Source: a virus. Taken from it: a stretch of 21,196 bases of DNA. Position numbers and translations under genes: made by a program. Under the pieces are notes generated by a model. That model did not search any database and was not told where the DNA came from. It was given only the letters and a program-made list of their open reading frames with translations. Positions 4,388-20,946 of this stretch are shown in pieces (the stretch's first letter is position 1; each line of letters starts with the position of its first letter). The stretch covers positions 1-21,196 of IMG/VR virus record IMGVR_UViG_3300006917_000181. One strand, written 5' to 3'.

Positions 4388-5509
4388 TTATACAGTTGTA
4401 GCTACGAATACGCCATTAGTAGTATCCTGTGGCGCACCGATCTGAGTCGTGAAGACCAGATCAACACTCTTGTTGTCACCGATTGAGCTTGAGAAGTTTT
4501 CACTTACAAGCTTGCAGCCTTTGACCTGATAGCAGATCTTATCGCTTCCAGAAGGATCTTTGAACTTGAAGAGCAGGGTCTTTGTAGTGTCAGCATTTAC
4601 AAGATCAATCAAATTACCAGCTTGTCTAAGGTCAGCGAGAGTAGCGGAAACGTTTACAGTTACTTCGATTGGGAAGTCGATAACCTTTGCGAAACCGAAG
4701 CGAGTGCCGAGGCGTTGCAGAGTTGTACGGCCAATTGGAACCTCAATTGAGAAGGACTGAATGTGAGCCGCAGTATTGCCAGTATCAATGCCTGTGGGCA
4801 TGTCTGTCAGTACTGGATCAGCAAGTTCCATTACAATGTCACCGGGGCGGAGAGCAGAAATTCCGATATCACCGCTAGAAGGTGTTGGAAGAGTAAATCC
4901 ATTACTTGTCGCAGTGCTGGTTTCTACAGTTAATGAGGGAAGAACTCCTGTGCTGCCTTCAACAACATTAATATTCAGACCTTCTACTGAAACTGAAACT
5001 GTTGGAAGGTTACCTACAGAAGCTTCAAGTGAATAGTTTGTAACGAATCCGTTGCCGATTGTGATTGTGCTAGCTTGATCGCCTGTAAAGGCTACACCAG
5101 CAGCATTATTGGCGTCGTTACCTTCTGGGGCAGTAAAGATATGGAAGTTACGGCCAGAAAGGGTCGAAGTGTCAGCCGTTTGAGTAGCGTCAATCAGACC
5201 CGAAATGAAAGAGCGTGTGGTTCCGAGACCAGTGCCTACGCTGAAACCAAGTGCTGTTTCATTATTACCTGAGTGCAGGTAATATGTGAAGTCCAGATTA
5301 ACTGTGGGAGGTTCAAGAATGATAGCGTCAATACGGGCAAGATTGCCGAATTGATTAACGTCTTGGCGAGCTACGGAGAAACCGTAATTAGCCGATTGTA
5401 CACGGTGAAGCTGCTTAATTTTATTTGCGGCGTGAACTGCTGTTGGAATAAGCGTGCCGTCGCTAACAAAGAGAGCCTCCGATTGGTAAATTACTCTATT
5501 GCGTGACAT
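4388..5509 (-). CDS. Probable major tail tube protein (duplicated tube domain)
   Basis: 373 residues, beta-rich, with no signal peptide. Two internal copies of the same motif align without gaps: residues 37-55 (V-Q-S ... R48 ... G55) and 250-268 (I-Q-S ... R261 ... G268). Each is followed by a long strand region; residues 154-176 (FVTNYSLEASVGNLPTVSV) are shared with two other proteins in this window (16174-16953 and 17885-19048). The fold is inferred to be that of tail tubes, with two domains fused as in T5 pb6. I call this copy the major tube because it stands last in the neck operon, ends at a strong terminator and has distinctly higher G+C content than neighbouring genes (hand-counted lines 43% and 53%, versus 20% in one line of the 201-residue gene upstream), as expected of a heavily expressed virion gene. 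No clear Shine-Dalgarno sequence. Confidence 0.7.
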   Translation of the reverse strand: MSRNRVIYQSEALFVSDGTLIPTAVHAANKIKQLHRVQSANYGFSVARQDVNQFGNLARIDAIILEPPTVNLDFTYYLHSGNNETALGFSVGTGLGTTRSFISGLIDATQTADTSTLSGRNFHIFTAPEGNDANNAAGVAFTGDQASTITIGNGFVTNYSLEASVGNLPTVSVSVEGLNINVVEGSTGVLPSLTVETSTATSNGFTLPTPSSGDIGISALRPGDIVMELADPVLTDMPTGIDTGNTAAHIQSFSIEVPIGRTTLQRLGTRFGFAKVIDFPIEVTVNVSATLADLRQAGNLIDLVNADTTKTLLFKFKDPSGSDKICYQVKGCKLVSENFSSSIGDNKSVDLVFTTQIGAPQDTTNGVFVATTV

Positions 5510-5561
5510 AGTTTAAGAAGGTTTGAAGTACTTTACATTTTTTTACCTATAAATGGAATAT
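5510..5561 (-). promoter_or_regulatory. Possible own promoter/leader of the tail tube gene
   Basis: This 52-base gap is the longest in the minus-strand block. Read on the minus strand it is AT-rich and contains TTTATAGG and TGTAAAGTA (plus-strand positions 5529-5537). The same 9-mer TGTAAAGTA occurs in the leader of the first gene of this operon (7462-7470). A separate promoter would fit a tube protein needed in far greater amounts than the neck proteins. The motif match is suggestive only. Confidence 0.3.
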
Positions 5562-6416
5562 TTAAGCCCTTGGGTATCTATATTTAATAATCTCAAAATC
5601 AGCAAATCCAACGAATGATTTAGGGTTCTGAGTTCTTGATCTAGAGTCTTTAAGTTTTGATACTACAACATGATCAATAAACATTTGTTCTTGAGGCGTT
5701 GGATTGTCATAATAATCATCATAAATATATGGAGAAGTTTTAACATCTCCAAATTCATTTATAGGATAAGTTGAAAAATCTTTTAATTTAAAAGCTTTTT
5801 GCATAGTATCGGCAAAAATTGATAAGACTCCATCTAAGCTATATGGAGAGTCTGCAAAAATTACTGATTTAAAATGAGAGCGGCTTTCGTCTTCTCCTCC
5901 TAATGCAAATGGCGTATTATGAAAGCCTTCTGTAATTAGATAGATAGCGGGAATGGCTTGGTCGTAAGGTTGAACATATTTACCCGTCCAAGGAAACTTT
6001 TCATTTGCCGCCAAATTATTATTTTCGATGATTAAGTCTTCTTCGTTTTCGTTAGTTAAATAGATATTATAATCTTTAACTGCAAAACTGCCAGTTACTG
6101 TTGCTCCTGTTGGAATTCCATTGCCAGTAGCTAAAACTCTACCATTTAAGTAATCAATGACTAAACCATCGCCTCTTCCTTTAAAAGATCCATTTACATA
6201 AACTCCACTAGGCACTGTTGCGCCAGTTATACTTGAATCAAATACCCATTGTTTATATAAACTACCAAATGCTTTGTACGAGCTTGGTAATCTAGTATCA
6301 GAATAGTAACTTAAAACGCCAGTTTGATTTTGATATGCTTCACCTTTTTTAAGCAAGTGGTGATCAAGCCACATTGCAAATGAGGTTGTTACATTATGTT
6401 GATATTGATGTTTCAT
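5562..6416 (-). CDS. Virion protein in the tail-terminator / tail-completion position
   Basis: 284 residues, not recognised as a named family. The N-terminus is helical and His-rich (MKHQYQHNVTTSFAMWLDHHLL), followed by beta-rich stretches with turns such as G-A-T-V-P-S-G-V-Y-V-N-G-S-F and a central A-I-P-A-I-Y-L-I-T-E-G segment. Near 200-225 is an F-A-D-S-P-Y-S-L-D-G-V-L-S-I-F-A-D-T-M helix. It overlaps the previous gene by 23 bases and lies 52 bases before the tail tube gene. In long-tailed phages this slot usually holds the tail terminator or completion protein, so that role is inferred from position. There is no Shine-Dalgarno sequence before the ATG at 6416. Confidence 0.6.
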   Translation of the reverse strand: MKHQYQHNVTTSFAMWLDHHLLKKGEAYQNQTGVLSYYSDTRLPSSYKAFGSLYKQWVFDSSITGATVPSGVYVNGSFKGRGDGLVIDYLNGRVLATGNGIPTGATVTGSFAVKDYNIYLTNENEEDLIIENNNLAANEKFPWTGKYVQPYDQAIPAIYLITEGFHNTPFALGGEDESRSHFKSVIFADSPYSLDGVLSIFADTMQKAFKLKDFSTYPINEFGDVKTSPYIYDDYYDNPTPQEQMFIDHVVVSKLKDSRSRTQNPKSFVGFADFEIIKYRYPRA

Positions 6417-6999
6417 TTAATTGTGATATTTTTTTCTCATATTTGCCGAGTATATCACTTATATATTTTACATTTTTAAATCTAGGTTTTCCAATTCTAG
6501 TTGATGTTTGTATAGCTGTTCCAGATCTAGAATTTTTTAATTTTTCTCTTTGTGTATATAAATAATATCCTACGCCAGAAATGCCTGTTTCTATACCTTT
6601 GGCCCAACTTCTACCAATAGCCCAAGGCATAGGAGAAGCTGCCCAAATATCTTCTTTATCGGGAAGATAAATATTCCAAACTGCACCTCCTTCTACTAAT
6701 CTAGAAAAAACTATTGTGCTTTTTTTAAATTCTTCTAAAACTGGTTCAATTGGATCATCGCCATCATAAAATCCAATATAGGAAAATAGATTGCCATATC
6801 CATTTAATGTACCACTGATATTTTGTGCGTTTGCACCTTTTTTTATTTCTTCAGTAACTGGATGATTCAAAAACTCCTTAATCATTTCTGCCTTAATTTT
6901 TTCAAATTGCGATAAAAGAGATTTTTCAACAGATTTTCTAATTATATCAGCAGCATCTCTATTTATTTTACTAGAAGTATCTCTTGGAATGTTTAACAT
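6394..6999 (-). CDS. Neck / HK97 gp10-like position protein
   Basis: 201 residues. The first ~60 are helical and charged (AADIIRKSVEKSLLSQFEKIKAEM then F-L-N-H-P-V-T-x-E-I-x-x-G). Next comes an N-I-S-G-T-L-N-G-Y-G-N-L-F-S-Y-I-G-F stretch, a D-G-D-D-P-I turn and a helix (I-E-P-V-L-E-E-F-K-K). The C-terminus is basic. A helix that clamps onto a small beta domain and a V-T-x-E-I-x-x-G motif is what I would expect of the HK97 gp10-like neck family, but I cannot align it. It starts 2 bases after the previous stop (TAATTATG) and overlaps the next gene. Confidence is good that it is a real gene and low for the role. Confidence 0.6.
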   Translation of the reverse strand: MLNIPRDTSSKINRDAADIIRKSVEKSLLSQFEKIKAEMIKEFLNHPVTEEIKKGANAQNISGTLNGYGNLFSYIGFYDGDDPIEPVLEEFKKSTIVFSRLVEGGAVWNIYLPDKEDIWAASPMPWAIGRSWAKGIETGISGVGYYLYTQREKLKNSRSGTAIQTSTRIGKPRFKNVKYISDILGKYEKKISQLNETSIST

Positions 7000-7001
7000 A
7001 A

Positions 7002-7457
7002 TTATTCATCAATTGGAGATAAAATAAAAGAATAATATCTTGGTCCAAAAATACCAAATGGTTGGTAATCTGAAACGATTGAATATCTTCTTCCATCAAA
7101 TTCTATTCTTCTTGCTTCTTTAAGATATGGGAATGCATCGCCACCAACTTTGATTTTTACAGATCCAACTGGATACACGATTCTTTGTTGAGCTTCTGCA
7201 CCAGGAAATATACTTTGTTCTTGAGATAAGTAATGTATTTTTGCTTTAAATTTATAAGATTTTACAGTATAAGAAGGTTTATTGGCTGCATTTGCAACAT
7301 CAGAACTATATAAATAATTAAATGTTGGAGATGTTGTCATTACCGTCATCTCTGGATTCATGTAAATAGTTATTTCACGGGCAAAGGTTTCGAAAACATT
7401 ATCAAAAATTGTATTAATGTATTCTTTTTGAGAAGCCGAAATATAGGAAGTCGCCAT
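7002..7457 (-). CDS. Head-tail joining (stopper)-like protein, first gene of the neck operon
   Basis: 151 residues. The N-terminal third is helical (Q-K-E-Y-I-N-T-I-F-D-N-V-F-E-T-F); the rest is beta. The C-terminal half has V-G-S-V-K-I-K-V-G-G-D-A-x-x-Y-L-K-E-A-R-R-I-E-F-D-G-R-R-Y, then S-x-Y-Q-P-F-G-I-F-G. The I-x-x-D-G-R-R-Y-x-I turn followed by a final hydrophobic strand resembles small phage head-closure proteins. The role rests on this resemblance plus position, two genes before the terminator-position gene. It is transcribed divergently from the gene at 7510 across a 52-base gap. Confidence 0.55.
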   Translation of the reverse strand: MATSYISASQKEYINTIFDNVFETFAREITIYMNPEMTVMTTSPTFNYLYSSDVANAANKPSYTVKSYKFKAKIHYLSQEQSIFPGAEAQQRIVYPVGSVKIKVGGDAFPYLKEARRIEFDGRRYSIVSDYQPFGIFGPRYYSFILSPIDE

Positions 7458-7509
7458 ATTTTACTTTACACTTTCTATACTTAAACTATTATATAGTAAG
7501 GTAAAAGGT
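7458..7509. promoter_or_regulatory. Divergent promoter region between the neck operon and the tape-measure operon
   Basis: This 52-base region separates two oppositely transcribed operons, so both must start here or inside a neighbouring gene. On the plus strand TTTACA (7465-7470), a 16-base gap and TATTAT (7487-7492) make a fair sigma-70-type promoter, each box one base off consensus, with the start codon at 7510. On the minus strand a perfect TATAAT lies at 7493-7488, but I see no good -35 box for it. The region also holds TGTAAAGTA on the minus strand (7470-7462). Confidence 0.45.
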
Positions 7510-7806
7510 ATGACAGGCAAGGAATATTTTAACGATAGGGTAAAAGTGAACACCTCTGACTTGTTCAAGAGGATGCTTATTATTTTAGAAGATATTAAGC
7601 ATGAGCATGATAGGCAATTTGCTCTATTGTACTCTTCTGCCCCTGATTCATTCAAGCCAGTTGTCAAACAGGCCAATTACCTAGATGAAGAGAAAATGAC
7701 GCTTTATAGAAAGCGCGTTTTAGACATGGGAAATGAAGCTATCCGAAAGATTATTTCTGAGATGGATAGCACTAGAGTAGAATTTCACCACACCTTTAAA
7801 CAATGA
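7510..7806 (+). CDS. Small helical protein of unknown function, first gene of the tape-measure operon
   Basis: 98 residues, almost entirely helical and charged (FNDRVKVNTSDLFKRMLIILEDIKHEHDRQFALL and a C-terminal E-E-K-M-T-L-Y-R-K-R-V-L-D-M helix). No cysteines, signal peptide or membrane segment. I do not recognise it. The leader AAGGTAAAAGGT gives a weak ribosome-binding site, and the stop overlaps the next start (ATGA, 7803-7806), so the two are probably translated together. Its place just upstream of chaperone-position genes suggests a role in tail assembly rather than a mature structural part. Confidence 0.6.
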   Translation: MTGKEYFNDRVKVNTSDLFKRMLIILEDIKHEHDRQFALLYSSAPDSFKPVVKQANYLDEEKMTLYRKRVLDMGNEAIRKIISEMDSTRVEFHHTFKQ

Positions 7807-9547: not shown

Positions 9548-12500
9548 ATGGCTAAAGGTATATCACTTCCAGTAGTTCAATCTGGTTTAGAAGCTTCTAT
9601 TCAACAAGGAGTTAAAAGTGTTGGCACGATTAAAATTCCAGCCAATATTGACCCGTCTGCATTTAAAAATTTAGCCCAGCCCCTTGGGCGCGTAAGTGGA
9701 TTAGCAACTGAGTTTGAGAAGTCGATTGCAGCATCAAATGCCCGTGTTTTGGCATTCGGAGCTTCAGTTGGCATTATCAATGGAGTGCAAAATGCATTTT
9801 CTGATTTGTTAAAAACAGGTATAGAAGTTCAAAAAACACTGGCAGATATATCGGCAATAAGTGGAAGGAGCGGACAAGAATTATCAAAATTTGGAGATGA
9901 GCTTTTTAATATTGGAAAGCTTACTGGTCAAAGTTTTAAAACAGCCGCTCAAGCTGCGCTTGAGTTTTCTCGTCAAGGTTTAAGTGTCGAAGATACGCTT
10001 AAAAGAACAACTGATGCCCTTACTTTAACAAGATTCACTTCCTTAAATGCGGCTGAAGCTGTTGATGTACTAACTGCTGCGGCAAATTCATTTGGCGAAA
10101 CTGGAATCACAACCGCACAGATTATTAACAAGCTTGTTGCGGTTGATACTAAATTTGCTGTTTCTGCTGAAGACTTGGCAAACGGCCTTGCGCGTGCAGG
10201 ATCAATTGCGCAGGAGGTTGGAGTTAATTTTGATGAATTAAATGCTGCAATTACAGTAGCACAAGAAAGAACTGCCCGTGGTGGCGCAGTCATTGGTAAT
10301 GCGCTTAAAACAATTTTTACAAGAATAAGAAGCGATGAAACAGTTCAAGCGCTAAGAGATATTGGAATCGAGTCTCTCAATGCTCAAGGACAATTAAAAG
10401 GCGCGGTTCCACTTTTACAAGAACTTGCCCAAAAACTTCAAGGATTAGCTGGTGGAGAAAGAATTCAAATTTTAGAAGCTGTTGCTAGTAAATACAACAT
10501 TAACATTCTTTCTGCTCTTCTTGATGATTTGAATAATGCTAATAGTAAATTTACACAGGCCGTTGCAATTTCTGCTGGAGCCAGCAACCAAGCTTACGAA
10601 AGACAGATAGAATTAAATAAAACTTTAGCCGCAGAAATCAATCGCGCTTCTGTTTCTGTAACTCAACTTTTCAATAAACTTTCAGAAATTGGAGTTACTG
10701 ATAATTTAGCTACTTTATTAAAGTTTGTTAGCGACCTTATTAATGGGTTTAACAAGCTTGTAGATTCAGAAGGTCTTGGGGGGAACATAGCTAAAGGTTT
10801 GGTTAAGGGTATTTCTGATGTATTTTTTACTATTGGATTGCCAATTATTGGAGCTATATTTATCAAACTGACTAGAGATATTGCTAAGTTTGGCGTTGAT
10901 TCTTTAAAAACAATTTTAGGAATAAATCAGCAACTTAAAGAACGTCAGGCTCTTGAACAGGCTGTAGTTAATACTCTTATAAGAGATCAGCAAATAATGG
11001 CGACCATTCTTTCTTTGAGTGGTGATCGCAGAAAGCAAGAGGAGTATTTACTCAACGTATATAATCGTCAATTAACTGCCTTGCAGCAAGTTCAAAATAT
11101 TGCAAAGTCAGTGGCCCCAGCATTATTAGCTGGTGGTTTAAGTGCTACAAGCGGAAGAATTCAAAAGCGTGGAGCAAGTGGTTATTTACCTGCTCAAGAA
11201 GCTGCTGATGTTCGTCGCGGCGTTGGAGGAGCAAGTTCTTCTTCTAAAGTAGTTTCAATTCCTAATTTTGCATTTGGTGGTGGCAAAAAAGGAACAATGA
11301 TTGCAAATACAAGCGAATATATTGTTCCTAATTTTGCAAATGGTGGATCTGCTATTTTTAACCAAGACATGGTTAGAAAATATGGTTTGCCTAGTGGCGC
11401 GAAAAAGATTTCTGCCTCTGGTGGATTTATACCTAACTTTGCTCGTTATGTTTATGACGCTGACAGAATATCAGCTGACGGCAATGCTATACTTAAATCA
11501 ATTTTATCATCTAAAGTTAAAAAGAATTTAATCGTTGGTCCGTCAGGTGCTGGCAAATCAACTTATGGCTCTGGGTTAGGAAGCTTCATCACTAGTGCCG
11601 CAGACGTAAGCAAGGCTTCAGAAATTGATATTTTATCAGGCGCAGCTAGAACAAAAACCGGCGGAATGTCAAAAAATCTTCAACAGATTTTAGATGCCGT
11701 TAATGTATCTGGAGGAAAAGTATCTTATCTTTATACTCCGAATATGAACGTTCTTTCCAGAAGAACAGAAAGAATTGGCGCAAATCCAATGGAGGGAGAC
11801 TTAAGAACATCTAAGCAAATTTCTGGAACGATGTTCGCGCCATTAAATCAATTTGATTTTATTTCAAAGATAAAAGGTACATCAAGAAACTTTGAAATGA
11901 TGCGCGGTGCTAGTGGGTATATTCCTAATTTTGCCACAAACTATAATTTGGGTTATGTTTGGAAAGGACAAGGCGCTCCAAATATAGGAGGAAAAATAGT
12001 TGATACATCTAATAAAACTGAATCTGGAGAGACCTTGCTTGTAGGAAATCAATTAAGAATGTTTAAAAAGGATGGAAGGGATCTAACCCCAGAAGAAATA
12101 ATAAAACTTGGGTGGCGACAAGCAAAAGATGAAGAATTAAAATATTTTAATACACAAAAAGCAAGTAGAAAAAAAGCTAGTTCTATTGGTAGAGCTGCAA
12201 TGCTTATTCCATCTGGAGTAGATGAACCATCTGCATTTGCTGAACCTCAAATTCCAGAAAATAAAGAATATTCTTCAGTGTCTTTCCCGGTATACAATTT
12301 AAAAGAAAGCAAATTAAAATCATTAAAAGGTCAGACAGCAAGTATTCCTGGTTATATAGATGAGCTTCAAAAAAATACAGAAAATATTGGTAAAATTCTT
12401 ACTGCAAAATTAATAGGTTCAACAAATATTGATGATAATGTTTATAAACAAGCTTGGAAAGCTAGTTATGGCGCACAAAGCGCAGTAAATTCATTATCGG

Positions 12501-15500
12501 GGGGTTTATTTGAAGCTGGAGTTAGGTATTTGACACATCCAGAAGGCACAATGGCTAAAGATAATTCTAATAGTCTAGATTTCCCGAACTTATCTAGCCC
12601 ATCTGGAAAAATAGTTAGAGATCTTTTTTCTATTAATAAAGAATATGCTGCTGATTTAAAAGGATCTGACTCTGGGTCTATTCGCAGAAAATTTGCAAGT
12701 CAAGTTTTAAAAAATGGCCTTGCAGCCGCAAGAGGTTATGTTCCAAACTTTGTTGACGATATGGCTTTGGGCGATGCTATAGACAGAGAATTATCTGCTG
12801 GCTTAAGGCCAAGTCAAATCCGTGTTACTCAGGATACAAAATTAAGAAATGCTCAAAATCCAAATGGTCTTGCAGTTATCAACACAAGAGACGAACCCAA
12901 TGGAAAGATTCCTTCTGATGCAAAAATACCAAATTTTGCAAAAACTAGAAAAAAAACTAAAAAGGTTCTAGATAAAGGTGAAAATGAATTTGAAGTTTCT
13001 TCTGGCAAATTAGGAGCAGCGTTTGCCGCATTGATTTTAGCATCTAATACTTTACAATCATCTTTTAGAAATGCTGATGGAACAATTAGTAAATTTGGGG
13101 AAGTTTTGACCACTGTTTCTAGAGTAGGAACTGGAGCTTCTGGTGGAGCATTATTAGGCAGCTTAGGAAAAGATACATTTGGACCACTATTAGGAAAATT
13201 AGGAAGAGTTGGAGCGGGTTTTGCCAAAGGATTACCTTTTGCTGGCGCTGTTGCTGGAGGAATTCTTGAATATGTTCAAATGAGAAATGAAGAAAAAGCC
13301 GCAGCAGAACAAACCAGACAATCAGAAATTCAAAAATCAGTACAGAATAAAATAAATGTAATTCAATCTAAAAGTTTGAATACTACTGAAGCTGCACAAG
13401 AAATTAATAAAGAAAGAGAAGAGACAGATAAAAAAAGAGCGGATACGGAACAAAAAATTTTATTAGCTCAAAAAAGATTGAGACAATTTAGTCAAAAAAT
13501 AAATCCTATAACTGGCAAGTTGTCCGAAGAGGATCAGCAAGAAGAGGAAAGGATTTCAGAATCTCTTAATGGATTGCTAGAATATAGAAATCGTTTAATA
13601 GATGAATCAAAATTTTTAGTAGAGGGATACATATCCACAATGAACGAAGGATTGCTAATTTCTAATAGAGAATCATTAAACGCTAGAACTCAAAATGCAG
13701 AATTAGAAAAAAGAATACCTTTAGAAAAGGCAGCCGCTGATATAATTTTTAAGTCATTGCAGGCAGAAAGCGCTGCTAGTATAAAATTCAAAAAGATTTC
13801 AGCAGAAAAAATTTTTAATGCATCATTGTTAAGCGAAGAAGAACAAAAACAAGTAGAATATGGAATAAAAAAAGAAGATATTGAAAATCAAATTAAAAAT
13901 TTACAATCAGAAGGTTTTAGATCTATCGTTTCTCAAGTTAAAAATAATAATAAGTTGGCTTCTTTAGATGAGGATAAATTAAAATCCTTAATGGAAAGAC
14001 TTGATGCGGGAAAGCAGATCGAAGATACTGATAAGGCTCTTAAAGAATTAGGTTTTGATACTTTGGCCGCGTTTAAATCAATGGTAGCCCCTATAATGGA
14101 GCAAAATAGAGAGAAAAAATTAGGGCTTGAGACTTCCGCTTCAGAATTAGAAATATCAGAACGTTTAGAATCTAAATTAAGATTACAGGTCTCGATTATA
14201 AAATTAAGAACTGAGGCCCTTCAATCTTCTCTGCAAATAGAAGAAGAAATTGCTGACTTGATTGAAAGAAATGCTCAAAATTTAGAAGATACAAAAAGTA
14301 GAACAGCTTTAACCGATATTGAAAGAAAGATAGCAAGACAACCATTTGCGACAAGAGAAGATGAATACAATTTAGGTTTAGTAAATGCTCAACTCGAAAG
14401 AACAAATCAACAACTTCAAGTTCAAAGAACTTTAACTCAAACTTCAAAGGGAGCGTTTAGAGACTTAAGAAAATCTTTTGAGGGAGAAGTTGGTAAAATA
14501 GGAGCTTTAGGAGAAGGCTTCACTAATCCAATATTACAAAATGTTTTAAATACAAAAGACGCAGAAGATGCCACAGAAAATTATAAAAATTTTTCAAATA
14601 TTTTAGATGAATTAAAGAAAAAAAGAAATGCTTTGTCAGAACAAAGAGATCAGTTAGAAATAGATCAAAATTTTGGATTAGGTGATCCTAAAAAATTAAG
14701 TATTTTTGATAATCAAATTTTAGATATAGATTCTAGAATAAAAAATCTACAAGAAAATCTAGCTAAATTTAATATCTCTCTTCAAGATGCTAATCTTTTA
14801 GCCGAAGAACAAAAGAAACAATTTAGAGACATTTATACTTATCAATTACAGTTATTAAAATTAAGAAAAGAAAGTCCATTTAAAGCTGGTATTTTAGAAG
14901 CCACAAACGAAATAAAGCAAGAGGTTGAATTCTTCAATCAAAAATTAGGTAAAGATATTACTCTTGGATTTAGAGATGGAATAGTTGGAGCTTTAGATGC
15001 TGCCATATCAGGAACAGAAAATTTAAACACCGCTTTACAAGATGTTGCTAGAAACTTTTTAAGATCAATGCAAAGCGCGTTTATTCAAAATGCAGCTAAT
15101 AATGCAATGGTTGGTTTAAGCAGCGCTTTCCCATCTATCTTTCCTAAGATAGCAACTGGTGCAAAAGGTGGTCTTGTAAGTGGCGGTAGTGGATATCGCG
15201 ATGATGTACCAGCCCTTCTTATGGATGGCGAATTCGTCATGAGGAAATCCGCTGTTGAAAAATATGGCATAGAAAATTTAAGAAAAATGAATGCTGGAGG
15301 AATCTTTCTTCCTGGTGTTCGTGGCGGCGGTAATATAACTGGTTATGACCAATTAAGAGCTTTCGCTAATCAAACAACTACTAGCGGTGCAACCGATGTA
15401 TTAAGAGGCAGTGGTTCAAGCGCATTTATTAATCTCGAAGATCAAAGCGCAAGACTTTCTAGATTTGGTTTATTAAATGAAGATACTATTAACCAAGAAA

Positions 15501-16174
15501 TTCGCTCTGCGCAAGAGCAAGGATTAAATATTATTGCAGAGAGGGAAAAGTATAGAACAGAGCAAAGAAAAGCGTTTCAACAACAATTAGTCGGAACAAT
15601 AGCGTCGGCGGCGTTAAGTTATGGAACAAGTAAATTTCTCTCTCCGAAAATTCCATCCAGCTATGGACCGAGATCAGATTTAAATCTTGGTTTATATAAA
15701 AATACTGCAAATATAACTAGTGGTCCAATGGCATTTGGACCATTTACTGGTTCAATGACAAGAGTCCCATTCAAGGCTTACGGTGGTCTTATGCGCCGTT
15801 ATGCAGCTGGTGGTCCAACTGATGATATTCCTGCATTGTTAATGAGCGGTGAATACATAATGAATCGCGGGGCAACGTCAAAGTATGGCAAAAGGATGCT
15901 TGAAGCTATGAATCAAGGTCGTATGTCGAGATTTGCGGATGGCGGCGAGGTTGGCTCTGTTTCCGAAAATACATCAACTGATAATGGCGCAAAGATGATG
16001 GGCGACGTTAATATTAGCATTAACGTAACTGGCCAAGGAACGCAGACAGAGGCTCAGGGCAATACAAACCAAGGCGGTATAGATTATAAGAAAATGTCTG
16101 AAAGGATCAAGGCTGTAGTGCTAGAAACCATAAACGAAGAAAAGCGTTTAGGAGGAGCACTCAGAAGTAGATAA
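9548..16174 (+). CDS. Tail tape measure protein with inserted P-loop and other modules
   Basis: 2208 residues. Residues ~85-335 match the TP901-type tape-measure core (Q-K-T-L-A-D-I-S-A-I-S-G-R, R-T-A-R-G-G-A-V-I-G-N-A-L-K-T-I-F-T-R). A hydrophobic segment lies at ~417-449. From ~570 to 1130 six hydrophobic-P-N-F-(A/V) motifs separate inserted modules, including a P-loop (GPSGAGKST, 664-672). Hydrophobic Gly/Ala-rich stretches at ~1150-1235 could cross a membrane; ~1240-1770 is long coiled coil. The C-terminus has two D-D-(V/I)-P-A-L-L-M-x-G-E units (from 1885 and 2092), a known tape-measure signature. Family role: sets tail length, sits inside the tube and is ejected with the DNA. At about 1.5 angstrom per residue the whole chain would predict roughly 330 nm, less if the modules are compact. 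Start ATG follows AAAGG. The stop overlaps the next start (TAATG). Confidence 0.93.
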   Translation: MAKGISLPVVQSGLEASIQQGVKSVGTIKIPANIDPSAFKNLAQPLGRVSGLATEFEKSIAASNARVLAFGASVGIINGVQNAFSDLLKTGIEVQKTLADISAISGRSGQELSKFGDELFNIGKLTGQSFKTAAQAALEFSRQGLSVEDTLKRTTDALTLTRFTSLNAAEAVDVLTAAANSFGETGITTAQIINKLVAVDTKFAVSAEDLANGLARAGSIAQEVGVNFDELNAAITVAQERTARGGAVIGNALKTIFTRIRSDETVQALRDIGIESLNAQGQLKGAVPLLQELAQKLQGLAGGERIQILEAVASKYNINILSALLDDLNNANSKFTQAVAISAGASNQAYERQIELNKTLAAEINRASVSVTQLFNKLSEIGVTDNLATLLKFVSDLINGFNKLVDSEGLGGNIAKGLVKGISDVFFTIGLPIIGAIFIKLTRDIAKFGVDSLKTILGINQQLKERQALEQAVVNTLIRDQQIMATILSLSGDRRKQEEYLLNVYNRQLTALQQVQNIAKSVAPALLAGGLSATSGRIQKRGASGYLPAQEAADVRRGVGGASSSSKVVSIPNFAFGGGKKGTMIANTSEYIVPNFANGGSAIFNQDMVRKYGLPSGAKKISASGGFIPNFARYVYDADRISADGNAILKSILSSKVKKNLIVGPSGAGKSTYGSGLGSFITSAADVSKASEIDILSGAARTKTGGMSKNLQQILDAVNVSGGKVSYLYTPNMNVLSRRTERIGANPMEGDLRTSKQISGTMFAPLNQFDFISKIKGTSRNFEMMRGASGYIPNFATNYNLGYVWKGQGAPNIGGKIVDTSNKTESGETLLVGNQLRMFKKDGRDLTPEEIIKLGWRQAKDEELKYFNTQKASRKKASSIGRAAMLIPSGVDEPSAFAEPQIPENKEYSSVSFPVYNLKESKLKSLKGQTASIPGYIDELQKNTENIGKILTAKLIGSTNIDDNVYKQAWKASYGAQSAVNSLSGGLFEAGVRYLTHPEGTMAKDNSNSLDFPNLSSPSGKIVRDLFSINKEYAADLKGSDSGSIRRKFASQVLKNGLAAARGYVPNFVDDMALGDAIDRELSAGLRPSQIRVTQDTKLRNAQNPNGLAVINTRDEPNGKIPSDAKIPNFAKTRKKTKKVLDKGENEFEVSSGKLGAAFAALILASNTLQSSFRNADGTISKFGEVLTTVSRVGTGASGGALLGSLGKDTFGPLLGKLGRVGAGFAKGLPFAGAVAGGILEYVQMRNEEKAAAEQTRQSEIQKSVQNKINVIQSKSLNTTEAAQEINKEREETDKKRADTEQKILLAQKRLRQFSQKINPITGKLSEEDQQEEERISESLNGLLEYRNRLIDESKFLVEGYISTMNEGLLISNRESLNARTQNAELEKRIPLEKAAADIIFKSLQAESAASIKFKKISAEKIFNASLLSEEEQKQVEYGIKKEDIENQIKNLQSEGFRSIVSQVKNNNKLASLDEDKLKSLMERLDAGKQIEDTDKALKELGFDTLAAFKSMVAPIMEQNREKKLGLETSASELEISERLESKLRLQVSIIKLRTEALQSSLQIEEEIADLIERNAQNLEDTKSRTALTDIERKIARQPFATREDEYNLGLVNAQLERTNQQLQVQRTLTQTSKGAFRDLRKSFEGEVGKIGALGEGFTNPILQNVLNTKDAEDATENYKNFSNILDELKKKRNALSEQRDQLEIDQNFGLGDPKKLSIFDNQILDIDSRIKNLQENLAKFNISLQDANLLAEEQKKQFRDIYTYQLQLLKLRKESPFKAGILEATNEIKQEVEFFNQKLGKDITLGFRDGIVGALDAAISGTENLNTALQDVARNFLRSMQSAFIQNAANNAMVGLSSAFPSIFPKIATGAKGGLVSGGSGYRDDVPALLMDGEFVMRKSAVEKYGIENLRKMNAGGIFLPGVRGGGNITGYDQLRAFANQTTTSGATDVLRGSGSSAFINLEDQSARLSRFGLLNEDTINQEIRSAQEQGLNIIAEREKYRTEQRKAFQQQLVGTIASAALSYGTSKFLSPKIPSSYGPRSDLNLGLYKNTANITSGPMAFGPFTGSMTRVPFKAYGGLMRRYAAGGPTDDIPALLMSGEYIMNRGATSKYGKRMLEAMNQGRMSRFADGGEVGSVSENTSTDNGAKMMGDVNISINVTGQGTQTEAQGNTNQGGIDYKKMSERIKAVVLETINEEKRLGGALRSR
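11258..12937 (+). repeat. Six x-P-N-F-(A/V) motif repeats inside the tape measure, delimiting inserted modules
   Basis: The motif's proline codons are at 11261 (P572), 11327 (P594), 11432 (P629), 11924 (P793), 12743 (P1066) and 12929 (P1128). Most copies are preceded by small or Gly residues (S-G-G-F-I, A-S-G-Y-I, A-R-G-Y-V) and use I or V before P-N-F. The intervals are short (22 and 35 residues), then 164, 273 and 62, so modules of different size sit between constant short linkers. Linker function is not known to me. Confidence 0.85.
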
Positions 16175-16953
16175 TGGCAAAGTTATCAACAGCAAATTAT
16201 GATGCAGAGGTTTACCTCAGTGGCTATAAAGTATTTGGAGTCACTGATGTAAATTTTGGATATTCTTTACCAATAGAACATCTTAATGTTTTGGGGTATA
16301 ACAAGTTTAGAACATTTACTTCTGGCCCACCGCAATCTTCATTTAGTATTCAAAAGTATTTATCTCCAAATGATTTCATTCTTGGTTTTACTGGCACAAC
16401 TGCAATAAGCGGCGGTTTGCTTTATGATTCGGCAAGTAAAAGTTTTGGTTTCACTTCTGGTTATTTAAATTCATATTCTGTTTCATGTGCAGTTGGCAAC
16501 TTTCCAAGTTTAAGCGCAGATTTTTCAGTATACGGAAATATTGGCAATGGTTTAATATCTTCTTCGGCTAGTCAAACAGGATCACTAACGGTTGTCAGGC
16601 CCAAGGATATTTTAATTCAATGCGATGGTAGTGGGACAAATAGAATAGAGTCTTTTACATATAACGTCGAATGTTCAAGACAAGCGCTTTATCATCCGAC
16701 AGGAAGTTCTCCAACGGAAGTTATAACGTTTAGGCCATATAGAGTAACAGCGCAGTTTTCTTTGGCGGTAGATGACTATCAGTCAAAAAAGCTTTTTGAT
16801 TATATTATTGATTCAAATAAAAGAAATATTAGTATAACAATAGGCTCTTTAGCTGCATTCACAATGTCAAACATGGAACTTATAGGAGAAACTATAAATT
16901 CATCAGCAACTGATGACGCTATGATAACCCTTAATTATCAAGGATTTTTATAA
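16174..16953 (+). CDS. Tail-tube-fold paralog, distal-tail position (shorter form)
   Basis: 259 residues, beta-rich. Two internal copies of the tube motif are visible: residues 23-41 (V-T-D-V-N-F-G-Y ... L-G) and 158-177 (I-E-S-F-T-Y-N-V ... R169-Q-A-L-Y). The strand pair around 94-117 (S-G-Y-L-N-S-Y-S-V-S-C-A-V-G-N-F-P-S-L-S) matches the same region of the proteins at 4388-5509 and 17885-19048, and V-R-P-K-D-I at 141-146 matches L-R-P-G-D-I in the major tube. Position after the tape measure suggests a tube initiator or distal tail ring, by analogy with T4 gp48/gp54, which are paralogs of the tube protein. It is coupled to both neighbours by TAATG overlaps. Confidence 0.65.
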   Translation: MAKLSTANYDAEVYLSGYKVFGVTDVNFGYSLPIEHLNVLGYNKFRTFTSGPPQSSFSIQKYLSPNDFILGFTGTTAISGGLLYDSASKSFGFTSGYLNSYSVSCAVGNFPSLSADFSVYGNIGNGLISSSASQTGSLTVVRPKDILIQCDGSGTNRIESFTYNVECSRQALYHPTGSSPTEVITFRPYRVTAQFSLAVDDYQSKKLFDYIIDSNKRNISITIGSLAAFTMSNMELIGETINSSATDDAMITLNYQGFL

Positions 16954-17885
16954 TGTCATTCTTTTACGACAGAGACCAAAATGTCACAGGAACGATTTCA
17001 TCGTCGTTCACATTTACTCCTTCGTATGGGATGCAGGTTTCATTTACTTCTGAATTAGCAGACTATGGAACAATAGATAATTATATTCATACTATGCCAA
17101 AAGGCTTGAACCATTTACAAATGCAAATTTCAATGCCGTTTGAAAATCGCAAGGAAGAACAAGCGAGACAAATCATAAGTTTTTTTGAAGGTCTTCACGG
17201 CACAGGTCATTTTGAATACACTGATGCCGCACAAATATATAAACCAATTAGATTGTTTGTTAATTCAATAGATGATTCGTTTAACGAAAATGATCTTCAT
17301 AATATTAATGTAACTTTAAGCACAGATCAAACTTCAACTTTATTAAATTGGAACAATGCCTATATAACTGGTAGTAACATAAAAGGAGATTGGGCAGCAA
17401 ATACTAGTTATTCTAAATACGATGTCGTAAGAAATGTTGCTGGGAATAGTGCTAATTTATATGATTCTTTTTATTATTGCACAGGAGATCATGCTGGGGT
17501 AGCTGCAATTGGAAATGGGAAGTGGACAAGAGAACTTGATTTCCAGCCAACGTATTCTTCGCAGGTTGCAAAAGAAACATCTGTAATCAAAACTGAATTA
17601 CCGTATTCATTTACAAAACGAACAGACTTCGGATTACACTCTAATACCATTAAACAATTCAAACTTGATTATAGAGGCGTCAGTGATGCTGAAGCTAGGT
17701 GTATTTTACATTTCTTAATAGGAAGACAAGGGTACAGAAAGTTTCAATATAAAATACCAAAGATATATAATCAGAATAAATACTTTTTTGCCCCACAATG
17801 GGAACACACATTTGTTTACAAAAATGTAAATGATATTTCAGTAACTCTAGTTGAAGACCCATTGGGCGCAAGGAGGATCTACTAA
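16953..17885 (+). CDS. Tandem gpM-like minor tail protein with a carbohydrate-binding-like insert
   Basis: 310 residues. Two halves are related: residues ~68-122 (E-E-Q-A-R-Q-I-I-S-F-F-E-G-L-H-G-T-G-H-F-E-Y ... N-I-N-V-T-L) and ~245-299 (D-A-E-A-R-C-I-L-H-F-L-I-G-R-Q-G-Y-R-K-F-Q-Y ... D-I-S-V-T-L). Each resembles the C-terminal half of lambda gpM-type tail-tip proteins. Between them, residues ~144-194 hold W147-x4-T-S-Y-x3-D-V-V ... Y-Y-C-T-G-D-H ... W191, the aromatic pattern of CBM5/12 or chitin-binding-like modules on phage and chitinase proteins. Likely role: distal tail or baseplate part touching host surface glycans. It lies in a TAATG-coupled chain between two tube-like proteins; its stop is preceded by AAGGAGG, a strong ribosome site for the next gene. 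Confidence 0.65.
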   Translation: MSFFYDRDQNVTGTISSSFTFTPSYGMQVSFTSELADYGTIDNYIHTMPKGLNHLQMQISMPFENRKEEQARQIISFFEGLHGTGHFEYTDAAQIYKPIRLFVNSIDDSFNENDLHNINVTLSTDQTSTLLNWNNAYITGSNIKGDWAANTSYSKYDVVRNVAGNSANLYDSFYYCTGDHAGVAAIGNGKWTRELDFQPTYSSQVAKETSVIKTELPYSFTKRTDFGLHSNTIKQFKLDYRGVSDAEARCILHFLIGRQGYRKFQYKIPKIYNQNKYFFAPQWEHTFVYKNVNDISVTLVEDPLGARRIY

Positions 17886-19062: not shown

Positions 19063-20946
19063 ATGGCAACAAGAGCAGGAAGCAATACAGTTGGTGATCT
19101 AGAAGAGGCAAAATTATTACAGGCAGAAGATCAATTTGTATTTTTACAAAATACAACAAAGAAACCCAAAAGAATTTCAAGAAAGAATTTCTTTAATACT
19201 CCTGGCTTAATTGTAAAAGGTAAAATTTTAGATCCAGAAGGTAATGATGTTGGTTTGGCTGCTGCGGCAGCTGCAAATGATGCCGCTACTGCTTTAGTCA
19301 CAGCGCAGGGCGCTCAAGATACTGCTGACGGTAAAAATAGAATTTTTTATTCAGATGATCCTCCATCAAATCCAACTGGGACTTATAATTTAAAGGAAAA
19401 TGATATTTGGTATGACACCAATAATGGTTATAAAATGTCCAAATGGACAGGATCGGCATGGCAAGCATATCAATTAGATGATCCAGCTTTAGCTGGATTA
19501 AATGTTGGAAAATTAACCGCAGGATTTATAAGTTCTCAGGTTATTTCTATCTTAGGAAATACCCCAAACAGTACACAGCCCGCACAATGTTCTGGGTTTA
19601 TAGAATCAAGTAACTTTGTTCCAACTTGGGTTTCTGGTGTGATGACAGTAAGGGCTTACAATGCAAGCGCTCCGTATGGTTGGCTGGGTAAAGAAAGTGC
19701 AAGTGACGTTGTTCAAGTAAAAGTTCTTCAGTCAGATGGAAGTTATAAATTATTTAGGTCCAAAACAAATCAAGGAGCAAACGCAACAGGCGCGCCACCA
19801 AGTTCTGGTAGTAACACTTATTGGGACGAAATAACTGGAAATGATATACCAACAATTGAATTAAAAATAAGCGATTCAATAACTAAAACTGTTCAAAATT
19901 TTGGTTTTAGAATTGTTGCTAATGGTTACGGAGAATTTGGAGGAGCTTTATTTAGAGGAGCAATTATAGCAAATGAAGGTTATTTTGGAGATAAAGTAAA
20001 TGCAGTAAGAGTTGACGACGACGGTTTGACAATGGGAAATTACGGCAGAATAAAATCTGCTGGTATAGGATACAATGGCACTGATTTTACAAGTTCAAGT
20101 GCATCTGGAGGATTTTTTCTAGGTAATACTCAGGCAGAAAATCAAGAAGAATTATATCAATTTTTTATTGGGGCGCCGTCTGGAAACTTTTTAAGATGGA
20201 ATGGAACTGATTTAATTATTAACGGTAAAGTAGGAATACCAAGTACAGGAAATGTAGATACAGATGCTGGATTAGAAATTACTAGTGGATTTGGTATAAG
20301 AAGAACGAGCAAAGATAAAGTACTAACAATAACTGGTGGCAATGGTAATGGTATTACATATGGTGCGCAAATAGATTTATGCGGAACAGAATTTATGGGT
20401 GCAAGTGGATTAGCAGAGGGACAATTAATTTTATCCGCTGGATATGATAGTACTCTTGCTTCTCCAGATCCATCTAGGGATGGATGCATTATATTTAGAA
20501 CATCCAGAGAATCTAATGCTAATATCGGCGTCCAAAGATTAAGAATTGATCTAGATGGAACTGTAAGAGTTGTTGACGCTGGTAACGCAAATGCAGGTGC
20601 GCCTGATGATGGCGCTGGTAATTTAGTAGTTGATAATAGTGTTACCGCTGGAACTTACACATCAACTTCTTCAAGGCGTTTTAAGAAAAAGATAAGAAAC
20701 TTTAAAAACGGTTTAGAAACCATTTCTAAACTCAGGCCAGTCATCTTTGATTGGAAGAATAAAGAAATTAAAAATGATATTGGTTTAATCGCTGAAGAAG
20801 TTAATGAAGTTATTCCTAACCTTGTTGGATTAAATAATAAAGGTGAAGTTGTTGGAATTGATTATGGAAAATTAACCCCAATCTTAATTCAAGCTGTAAA
20901 GGAGTTATCGCTTGAAGTTGAGAGATTAAAAAATAAAATAAAATAA
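19063..20946 (+). CDS. Tail fibre / central fibre protein with peptidase_S74 domain
   Basis: 627 residues. The N-terminus (residues 1-60) is polar and helical (G-D-L-E-E-A-K-L-L-Q-A) and probably docks to the tail tip. An Ala-rich helix (~67-90) is followed by T-A-D-G-K-x-x-I-F-Y-S-D-D-P-P and D-I-W-Y-D-T-N-N-G ... W-T-G-S-A-W-Q (~86-133), a motif set found in central fibres of J-type tail proteins. The middle is beta-rich with G-x-x-A-N-E-G-Y-F-G-D-like turns. The S74 chaperone spans ~536-627 with S536-S-R-R-F-K, the catalytic serine and lysine spaced as in the fibre ending at 2346, and I-G-L-I-A-E-E-V-N-E-V-I-P. It ends in a coiled-coil helix. The domain should release itself after trimer assembly. 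No Shine-Dalgarno sequence; it is followed 4 bases later by the collagen-like gene. Confidence 0.85.
   Translation: MATRAGSNTVGDLEEAKLLQAEDQFVFLQNTTKKPKRISRKNFFNTPGLIVKGKILDPEGNDVGLAAAAAANDAATALVTAQGAQDTADGKNRIFYSDDPPSNPTGTYNLKENDIWYDTNNGYKMSKWTGSAWQAYQLDDPALAGLNVGKLTAGFISSQVISILGNTPNSTQPAQCSGFIESSNFVPTWVSGVMTVRAYNASAPYGWLGKESASDVVQVKVLQSDGSYKLFRSKTNQGANATGAPPSSGSNTYWDEITGNDIPTIELKISDSITKTVQNFGFRIVANGYGEFGGALFRGAIIANEGYFGDKVNAVRVDDDGLTMGNYGRIKSAGIGYNGTDFTSSSASGGFFLGNTQAENQEELYQFFIGAPSGNFLRWNGTDLIINGKVGIPSTGNVDTDAGLEITSGFGIRRTSKDKVLTITGGNGNGITYGAQIDLCGTEFMGASGLAEGQLILSAGYDSTLASPDPSRDGCIIFRTSRESNANIGVQRLRIDLDGTVRVVDAGNANAGAPDDGAGNLVVDNSVTAGTYTSTSSRRFKKKIRNFKNGLETISKLRPVIFDWKNKEIKNDIGLIAEEVNEVIPNLVGLNNKGEVVGIDYGKLTPILIQAVKELSLEVERLKNKIK

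Follow-up and report, generated by a model that had tools for sequence, protein, structure and literature searches.

The tape measure protein of long-tailed phages fills the tail tube and exits ahead of or with the DNA. In the phage described here, the middle of this protein contains a perfect Walker A motif, which raises the question of whether an enzyme has been built into the tail ruler and, if so, what such an enzyme would do there. The window, the whole stretch of DNA that was analysed, spans the whole of a virus record of 21,196 bases, with no sequence beyond it. The original prediction had placed a module resembling small P-loop kinases of the zeta-toxin or polynucleotide kinase (Pnk) type at positions 11435–11923, inside a protein read as a tape measure. 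This range matches the natural module, which starts at 11432, within one codon.

The tape measure protein and its surroundings

The module is encoded within the largest open reading frame (ORF) of the window, which is intact and specifies 2208 amino acids. Its suspected identity as a tape measure protein is borne out by a Pfam match to PhageMin_Tail (E 1.2e-27, residues 122–311) and by matches to PHROG tape-measure families down to E 6.9e-44. The coordinates of all features are collected in Table 1. A phage minor tail protein is encoded shortly downstream (16953–17885). The N-terminal backbone is 71–86% identical to that of the closest relatives; when it was searched against the GenBank phages, the matches were limited to generic tape measure proteins of about 25% identity. 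A terminase search in the relatives gave no placement of these phages.

Elsewhere in the window, two tail-fibre-like proteins (1–2346 and 19063–20946) contain a C-terminal Peptidase_S74 (endosialidase chaperone) domain. Between tail fibre and tail genes lies a reverse-strand block (4388–7676) with ORFs of 373, 284, 201, 151 and 71 amino acids, of which the four longest have no Pfam match and those of 373 and 284 amino acids have no PHROG match. No metallopeptidase (zincin-like processing peptidase) was found among the 16 ORFs searched in the window, which is a fragment.

Table 1. Features of the tape measure protein and of modules in related phages. Positions are those of the window unless a relative (L number) is named.
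Feature	Position	Strand	Basis
Tape measure protein	9548–16174	+	Pfam PhageMin_Tail, PHROG tape measure
PhageMin_Tail domain, aa 122–311, within constant N-terminal backbone aa 1–571	9911–10480	+	Pfam
Array head: SIPNFA and YIVPNFA (aa 572, 594), conserved glycine-rich stretch	11261–11338	+	
Left boundary motif GFIPNFA, aa 626–632	11423–11443	+	Motif scan
P-loop kinase-like module, 164 aa (aa 629–792)	11432–11923	+	Family alignment, model, fold match
YDAD, aa 636–639, invariant YDxD ending the N-terminal strand; candidate metal or acid site	11453–11464	+	
Walker A GPSGAGKST, aa 664–672, lysine 670	11537–11563	+	Conserved in relatives
RRTER, aa 738–742, invariant RRxxR after strand 4, lid-like	11759–11773	+	Conservation, model
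DLR, aa 751–753, invariant	11798–11806	+	Conservation
Right boundary motif GYIPNFA, aa 790–796	11915–11935	+	Motif scan
Neighbour module, aa 793–1065, PD-(D/E)XK-type nuclease by catalytic pattern	11924–12742	+	E989, D1011, K1038
Boundary motif GYVPNFV, aa 1063–1069	12734–12754	+	Motif scan
Short conserved end module, aa 1066–1127, '..LAVINTRDEPNGK'	12743–12928	+	42-member cluster
Last boundary motif AKIPNFA, aa 1125–1131	12920–12940	+	Motif scan
SNase / GNAT PNFA modules	L106:8751–9353; L056:250–705; L061:2237–2665	−; +; −	Profile match
HAD-like modules (DWDGT, DYDYT, DLDET)	L099 aa 1226–1378; L123 aa 1016–1168; L122 aa 1443–1650; L045:2200–2730		

A conserved P-loop module with fixed edges

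The kinase-like module extends from the PNFA at residue 629 to the GYI ahead of the PNFA at residue 793, with a G[YF][IV]PNFA motif on either side. The Walker A motif is located where it had been described and is preceded by the hydrophobic residues N-L-I-V, and the downstream stretches SEIDIL and VSYLYTPNMNVLSRRTERI also read as given in the original prediction. When the tape measure protein was shuffled, the loose pattern G....GK[ST] arose by chance in 15.5% of the trials, and a hydrophobic strand followed by GxxGxGK[ST] in 0.15%. According to this shuffling, the Walker motif alone is suggestive, so that conservation has to decide.

Here, pattern and profile scans of IMG/VR yielded 32 distinct module copies longer than about 140 amino acids, each of them part of a modular tape measure protein from an uncultivated phage. 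The motifs [AG]xxxxGK[ST], RRxxR, DLR and YDxD are kept in all 32, down to the most distant copies (L196, L197, L307 and L311), which are 47–50% identical to the copy of the window. The Walker lysine, chosen beforehand as the decisive residue, is invariant in every homologue. The ratio of nonsynonymous to synonymous substitutions (dN/dS) is about 0.05–0.26 (Nei-Gojobori, equal-length copies, unsaturated synonymous sites), a rough value because the synonymous divergence is high. Judged from these sequence comparisons, the module is under purifying selection. Its length is 162–167 amino acids in nearly all relatives, whereas neighbouring modules vary widely, and it occupies the first, second or a later position of the array. 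No match to the module was found in GenBank phages by tblastn, and no relative was found in 84,980 GTDB species genomes by the scan used.

Predicted fold and family assignment

Modelling of the module by AlphaFold with 27 sequences of the family resulted in a pLDDT of 83.5 and a pTM of 0.81, values of a prediction from a shallow alignment. An earlier run with 14 close homologues had reached a pLDDT of 60.6 and a weak fold search, and improved once the distant members were added. In module numbering, the model displays strands at 5–9, 30–36, 64–70, 97–101 and 154–158 and the P-loop helix at 42–47. A helix at 81–93 connects strands 64–70 and 97–101, the next one at 104–117 holds RRxxR, and two more precede the last strand. 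This predicted alternation of strands and helices corresponds to the P-loop layout with a central parallel sheet, the absence of which was to have refuted the original prediction, and the lid-type arginines are found, in 32 of 32 copies, in the helix following strand 97–101.

The top Foldseek match among predicted viral structures was a putative polynucleotide kinase (probability 1.00, E 1.7e-3, TMq 0.46), followed by another Pnk (0.98), zeta-toxin proteins (0.82–0.92) and P-loop proteins. Against the PDB, the best match was an adenylate kinase (probability 0.75, E 0.011, TMq 0.36), and no solved structure fell below E 0.001; the TM-scores of the fold matches lie between 0.3 and 0.47. Profile searches assigned the module to no family. 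For the window copy, all Pfam matches to AAA families stayed under the cut-off; AAA_33 was matched by 5 of 14 module members with a best E of 0.16, PHROG returned diffuse P-loop families and no convincing kinase family, and hhalign aligned the module with T4 Pnk in the Walker A region only (17 columns, probability 24%). The prediction therefore stands in part: the model supports the fold class of a P-loop kinase, nearest to polynucleotide kinases and zeta-toxin proteins, whereas the sequence profiles do not place the module in any named kinase family.

The weak profile matches are mostly to AAA and ABC ATPases, and the carrier protein certainly has a structural role. Both would fit a module that serves the tape measure itself as an NTP-binding switch or motor part, ATPase-like, during tail assembly or ejection. 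This appears unlikely, however, because the viral fold matches are lid-bearing kinases and not AAA motors, the neighbouring exchangeable modules resemble nucleases and acetyltransferases, and close relatives with the same backbone (L123 and L043) lack the module, so that tail assembly does not need it.

In Pnk-type kinases, the catalytic acid is located at strand 2 or 3. The candidate for this acid, the aspartate of EIDIL, is a threonine in the distant members L196, L197, L307 and L311, and the only invariant acids of the module are D9, D11 and D123 (module numbering), which lie within YDxD and DLR. Catalysis may have been lost with the scaffold retained. Taken further, the apparent lack of an acid at strand 2/3, together with the tolerance of tape measure proteins toward insertions, would suggest a catalytically dead filler that merely provides bulk or length and in which the Walker motif is a relic. 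This is considered very unlikely, since the Walker lysine and threonine, the lid arginines and the two acidic motifs are invariant in every copy down to 47–50% identity, the dN/dS values are low, and the length is fixed here and free in other modules. A divergent P-loop kinase-like domain that is folded and maintained remains the preferred reading.

Exchange of modules at the PNFA motif

The G[YF][IV]PNFA motif is repeated along the middle part of the tape measure protein (residues ~572–1130 in the window) and divides it into an array of modules, the head of which is 71–88% identical among relatives even where the modules differ. Of the 80 homology breakpoints that pairs of related genes show in the array, 72 are no more than 30 nt away from a motif, compared to 11% expected for random positions, and the median distance is 11 nt versus 140 for random ones. 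These 80 endpoints are not independent because 46 pairs share members; the effect is large.

The comparison of L099 with L123 illustrates a single exchange. Both are 96% identical at the DNA level up to residue 634, where the identity breaks at GYIPNF and a kinase module stands opposite an unrelated nuclease-type module; identity (87%) resumes at GYIPNY, ahead of a HAD-like module. On a backbone tree built from the N-terminal ~510 amino acids of 61 proteins, presence of the kinase requires seven changes, at least five of which are forced by well-supported branches. PNFA motifs, as these alignments indicate, split the middle of these tape measure proteins into exchangeable modules. Beyond what had originally been proposed, the kinase-like module is one of many such PNFA-bounded cargo modules.

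The codon usage of the motif equals the background of the rest of the gene, which argues that selection keeps PNFA as a peptide. A DNA recombination site conserved as DNA was rejected for the same reason. As a peptide, the motif may link modules, serve as a docking strand within the tube, bind a chaperone or be cut.

Since every relative is a metagenomic contig and the joins occur at a repeated motif, one may ask whether assemblers have fused unrelated phages there. At the motif, only ~20 nt of DNA are shared, with no conservation of codons, which is too little for usual assembly overlaps. Furthermore, the same arrays were recovered from different metagenomes (L002 = L003, L006 = L007 and L009 = L010), the kinase occurs on well-supported separate branches and the reading frames are open throughout. 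An assembly artefact is therefore extremely unlikely.

Genuine exchange could also be driven by the modules themselves, if these were mobile elements akin to homing nucleases and the kinase a hitchhiker. In the arrays, no type of module is more common or more diverse than PD-(D/E)XK, and tape measure genes frequently contain interrupting homing endonucleases (PMC10448857). All modules are in frame, however, and no intron or intein was seen; the kinase module is under apparent purifying selection, and modules without a nuclease signature (kinase, GNAT and a helical module of 137 amino acids) swap likewise at the same motif. Hence, there is little probability that the modules are passengers of this kind, and cargo exchanged at PNFA joints is the reading followed below.

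The other modules of the array

Motif-to-motif segments were clustered from 159 open reading frames, some of them from overlapping loci. Besides the kinase-like family, these array sets contain several unrelated enzyme-like domains, namely modules with a PD-(D/E)XK pattern, SNase (E 2e-9), GNAT (E 0.0026 and 7e-5) and HAD-like modules, all between PNFA motifs of tape measure proteins. The array of the window itself combines the kinase-like module with a nuclease-pattern module. For the latter, no Pfam match was obtained. Its assignment as a putative nuclease follows from a cluster of 70 relatives, in which G (99%), E (91%), D (97%) and K (97%) are conserved at spaced positions. The N-terminal half of this module is highly variable between relatives.

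Within the HAD-like modules, DxDxT, TxR, K and D are conserved; this label is taken from motifs only, because profile searches gave no family. HAD-like and kinase modules sometimes share one protein and recall the two halves of a polynucleotide kinase-phosphatase. Most labels of the non-kinase modules are likewise motif-based. For other modules, ART-, protein-kinase- and metallopeptidase-like labels had been suspected by eye and were dropped, as they found no profile support.

The short end module with GLAVINTRDEPNG is widespread among the clustered arrays. With its consensus '..IRVTQDxxLRNxxNPNGLAVINTRDEPNGK', it is a very constant piece of the array, and this module of 65 amino acids had no match in GenBank phages by tblastn. 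On contig L134 (+), which also has a kinase-bearing tape measure, an ORF starting near 2302 encodes a separate small protein with MGLPGAGKTT that resembles small P-loop kinases.

A motif scan of GTDB returned mostly single chance matches and four MAG contigs with PNFA-type proteins (L239, L251, L288 and L305). These tape measures fall into Verrucomicrobiales, Flavobacteriaceae and Woesebacteria MAG bins, mostly on short contigs, and are weak hints to the hosts.

A proposed loadable tail ruler

Taken together, the locus most probably encodes a folded, divergent P-loop kinase-like domain as one cargo module of a modular tape measure protein, with G[YF][IV]PNFA as the joints between exchangeable modules. 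The module boundaries, the exchange at the motif, the purifying selection and the invariance of Walker A and the lid-like arginines are read directly from the sequences. Delivery, catalysis and substrate of the module are inferred. Such a set of interchangeable, enzyme-like modules suggests that the tail ruler serves as a rack onto which proteins are loaded for delivery together with the phage DNA.

Mechanistically, the N-terminal tail-assembly domain and the C-terminal half would form a frame around the array. The tape measure protein would leave the tail with the DNA, its cargo being threaded in the tube, and the module would refold at or in the cell and bind ATP. Phosphorylation of a nucleic acid or a host component could follow there, in the first minutes of infection. 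By analogy with the P23-45 tape measure and Tme, the putative nuclease and other modules of the same polypeptide would act alongside, before any phage gene is expressed. Delivery with the DNA follows from established tape measure biology only, and since a kinase requires ATP, the module would have to arrive in the cytoplasm to be of any use. As the likeliest class of substrate, nucleic-acid ends, as for Pnk, or a small metabolite can be guessed.

More tentatively, and with somewhat less than even confidence, the tape measures of this large, so far uncultivated phage group can be regarded as programmable delivery cassettes. Here, the GYIPNFA joint, as docking or cutting site, would let whole effector domains swap, including a new P-loop kinase family, which would be delivered at DNA entry as counter-defence or takeover enzymes. 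If delivered, the modules would belong to the phage proteins that act first, being in place ahead of phage gene expression, and a motif search would list such modules across uncultivated phages. In proteins that are blank to profile libraries, the PNFA motif offers a simple rule for module edges.

Comparison with known systems

No paper on the PNFA motif or such an array was found in the open-licence literature, many papers lying outside it. Mosaic signals in tape measure proteins have been reported, with no genuine recent case confirmed (Smug et al., 2023; PMC10684548). For the phages described here, the exchange is resolved at the DNA level, its breakpoints fall at a short peptide motif and the swapped pieces are enzyme-like.

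An NTP-using enzyme as part of a tape measure has a precedent in gp96 of Thermus phage P23-45, which carries a virion RNA polymerase thought to act during DNA entry (PMC10770324). There, a single RNA polymerase is located at the N-terminus, whereas the window protein carries a small P-loop kinase-like module in an exchangeable PNFA array.

Several unrelated enzyme domains in one polypeptide also occur in the polyvalent proteins of phages and conjugative elements, which are predicted to be injected with the DNA and whose domains include nucleases, GNATs and zeta-toxin-like kinases, some of them fused to MuF (Iyer et al., 2017; PMC5512222). The word 'tape' is absent from that paper. In contrast to the polyvalent proteins, the carrier here is a tape measure and the modules are separated and exchanged at a standard peptide.

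A tape-measure-like carrier of effector-type parts is likewise found in Tme and Sle1, tape-measure-related effectors of bacterial contractile injection systems (PMC11126660, PMC13277306), of which Tme has endonuclease activity (PMC11126660). These belong to bacterial injection systems and hold their effector parts C-terminally, whereas the window encodes a phage tape measure with an internal multi-module array.

The module shares with T4 Pnk and the zeta-toxin kinases the predicted fold class, Walker A and lid-type arginines after strand 4. It differs from T4 Pnk in that the two sequences resemble each other in the Walker A region only and the usual catalytic acid is not evident. Furthermore, T4 Pnk is a kinase-phosphatase, whereas kinase and HAD-like parts are separate exchangeable modules here, in some cases of the same tape measures.

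Enzyme motifs inside tape measure proteins are also known as peptidoglycan-hydrolase motifs, for example in mycobacteriophage TM4 (cited in PMC13277306), and these act on the cell wall during entry. The tape measure described here likewise contains enzyme motifs, but a kinase or DNA nuclease would have to be in the cytoplasm to encounter its ATP or DNA. Tape measures fused to a single enzyme and injected multi-enzyme proteins are known, and the kinase-like family described here matches no named one.
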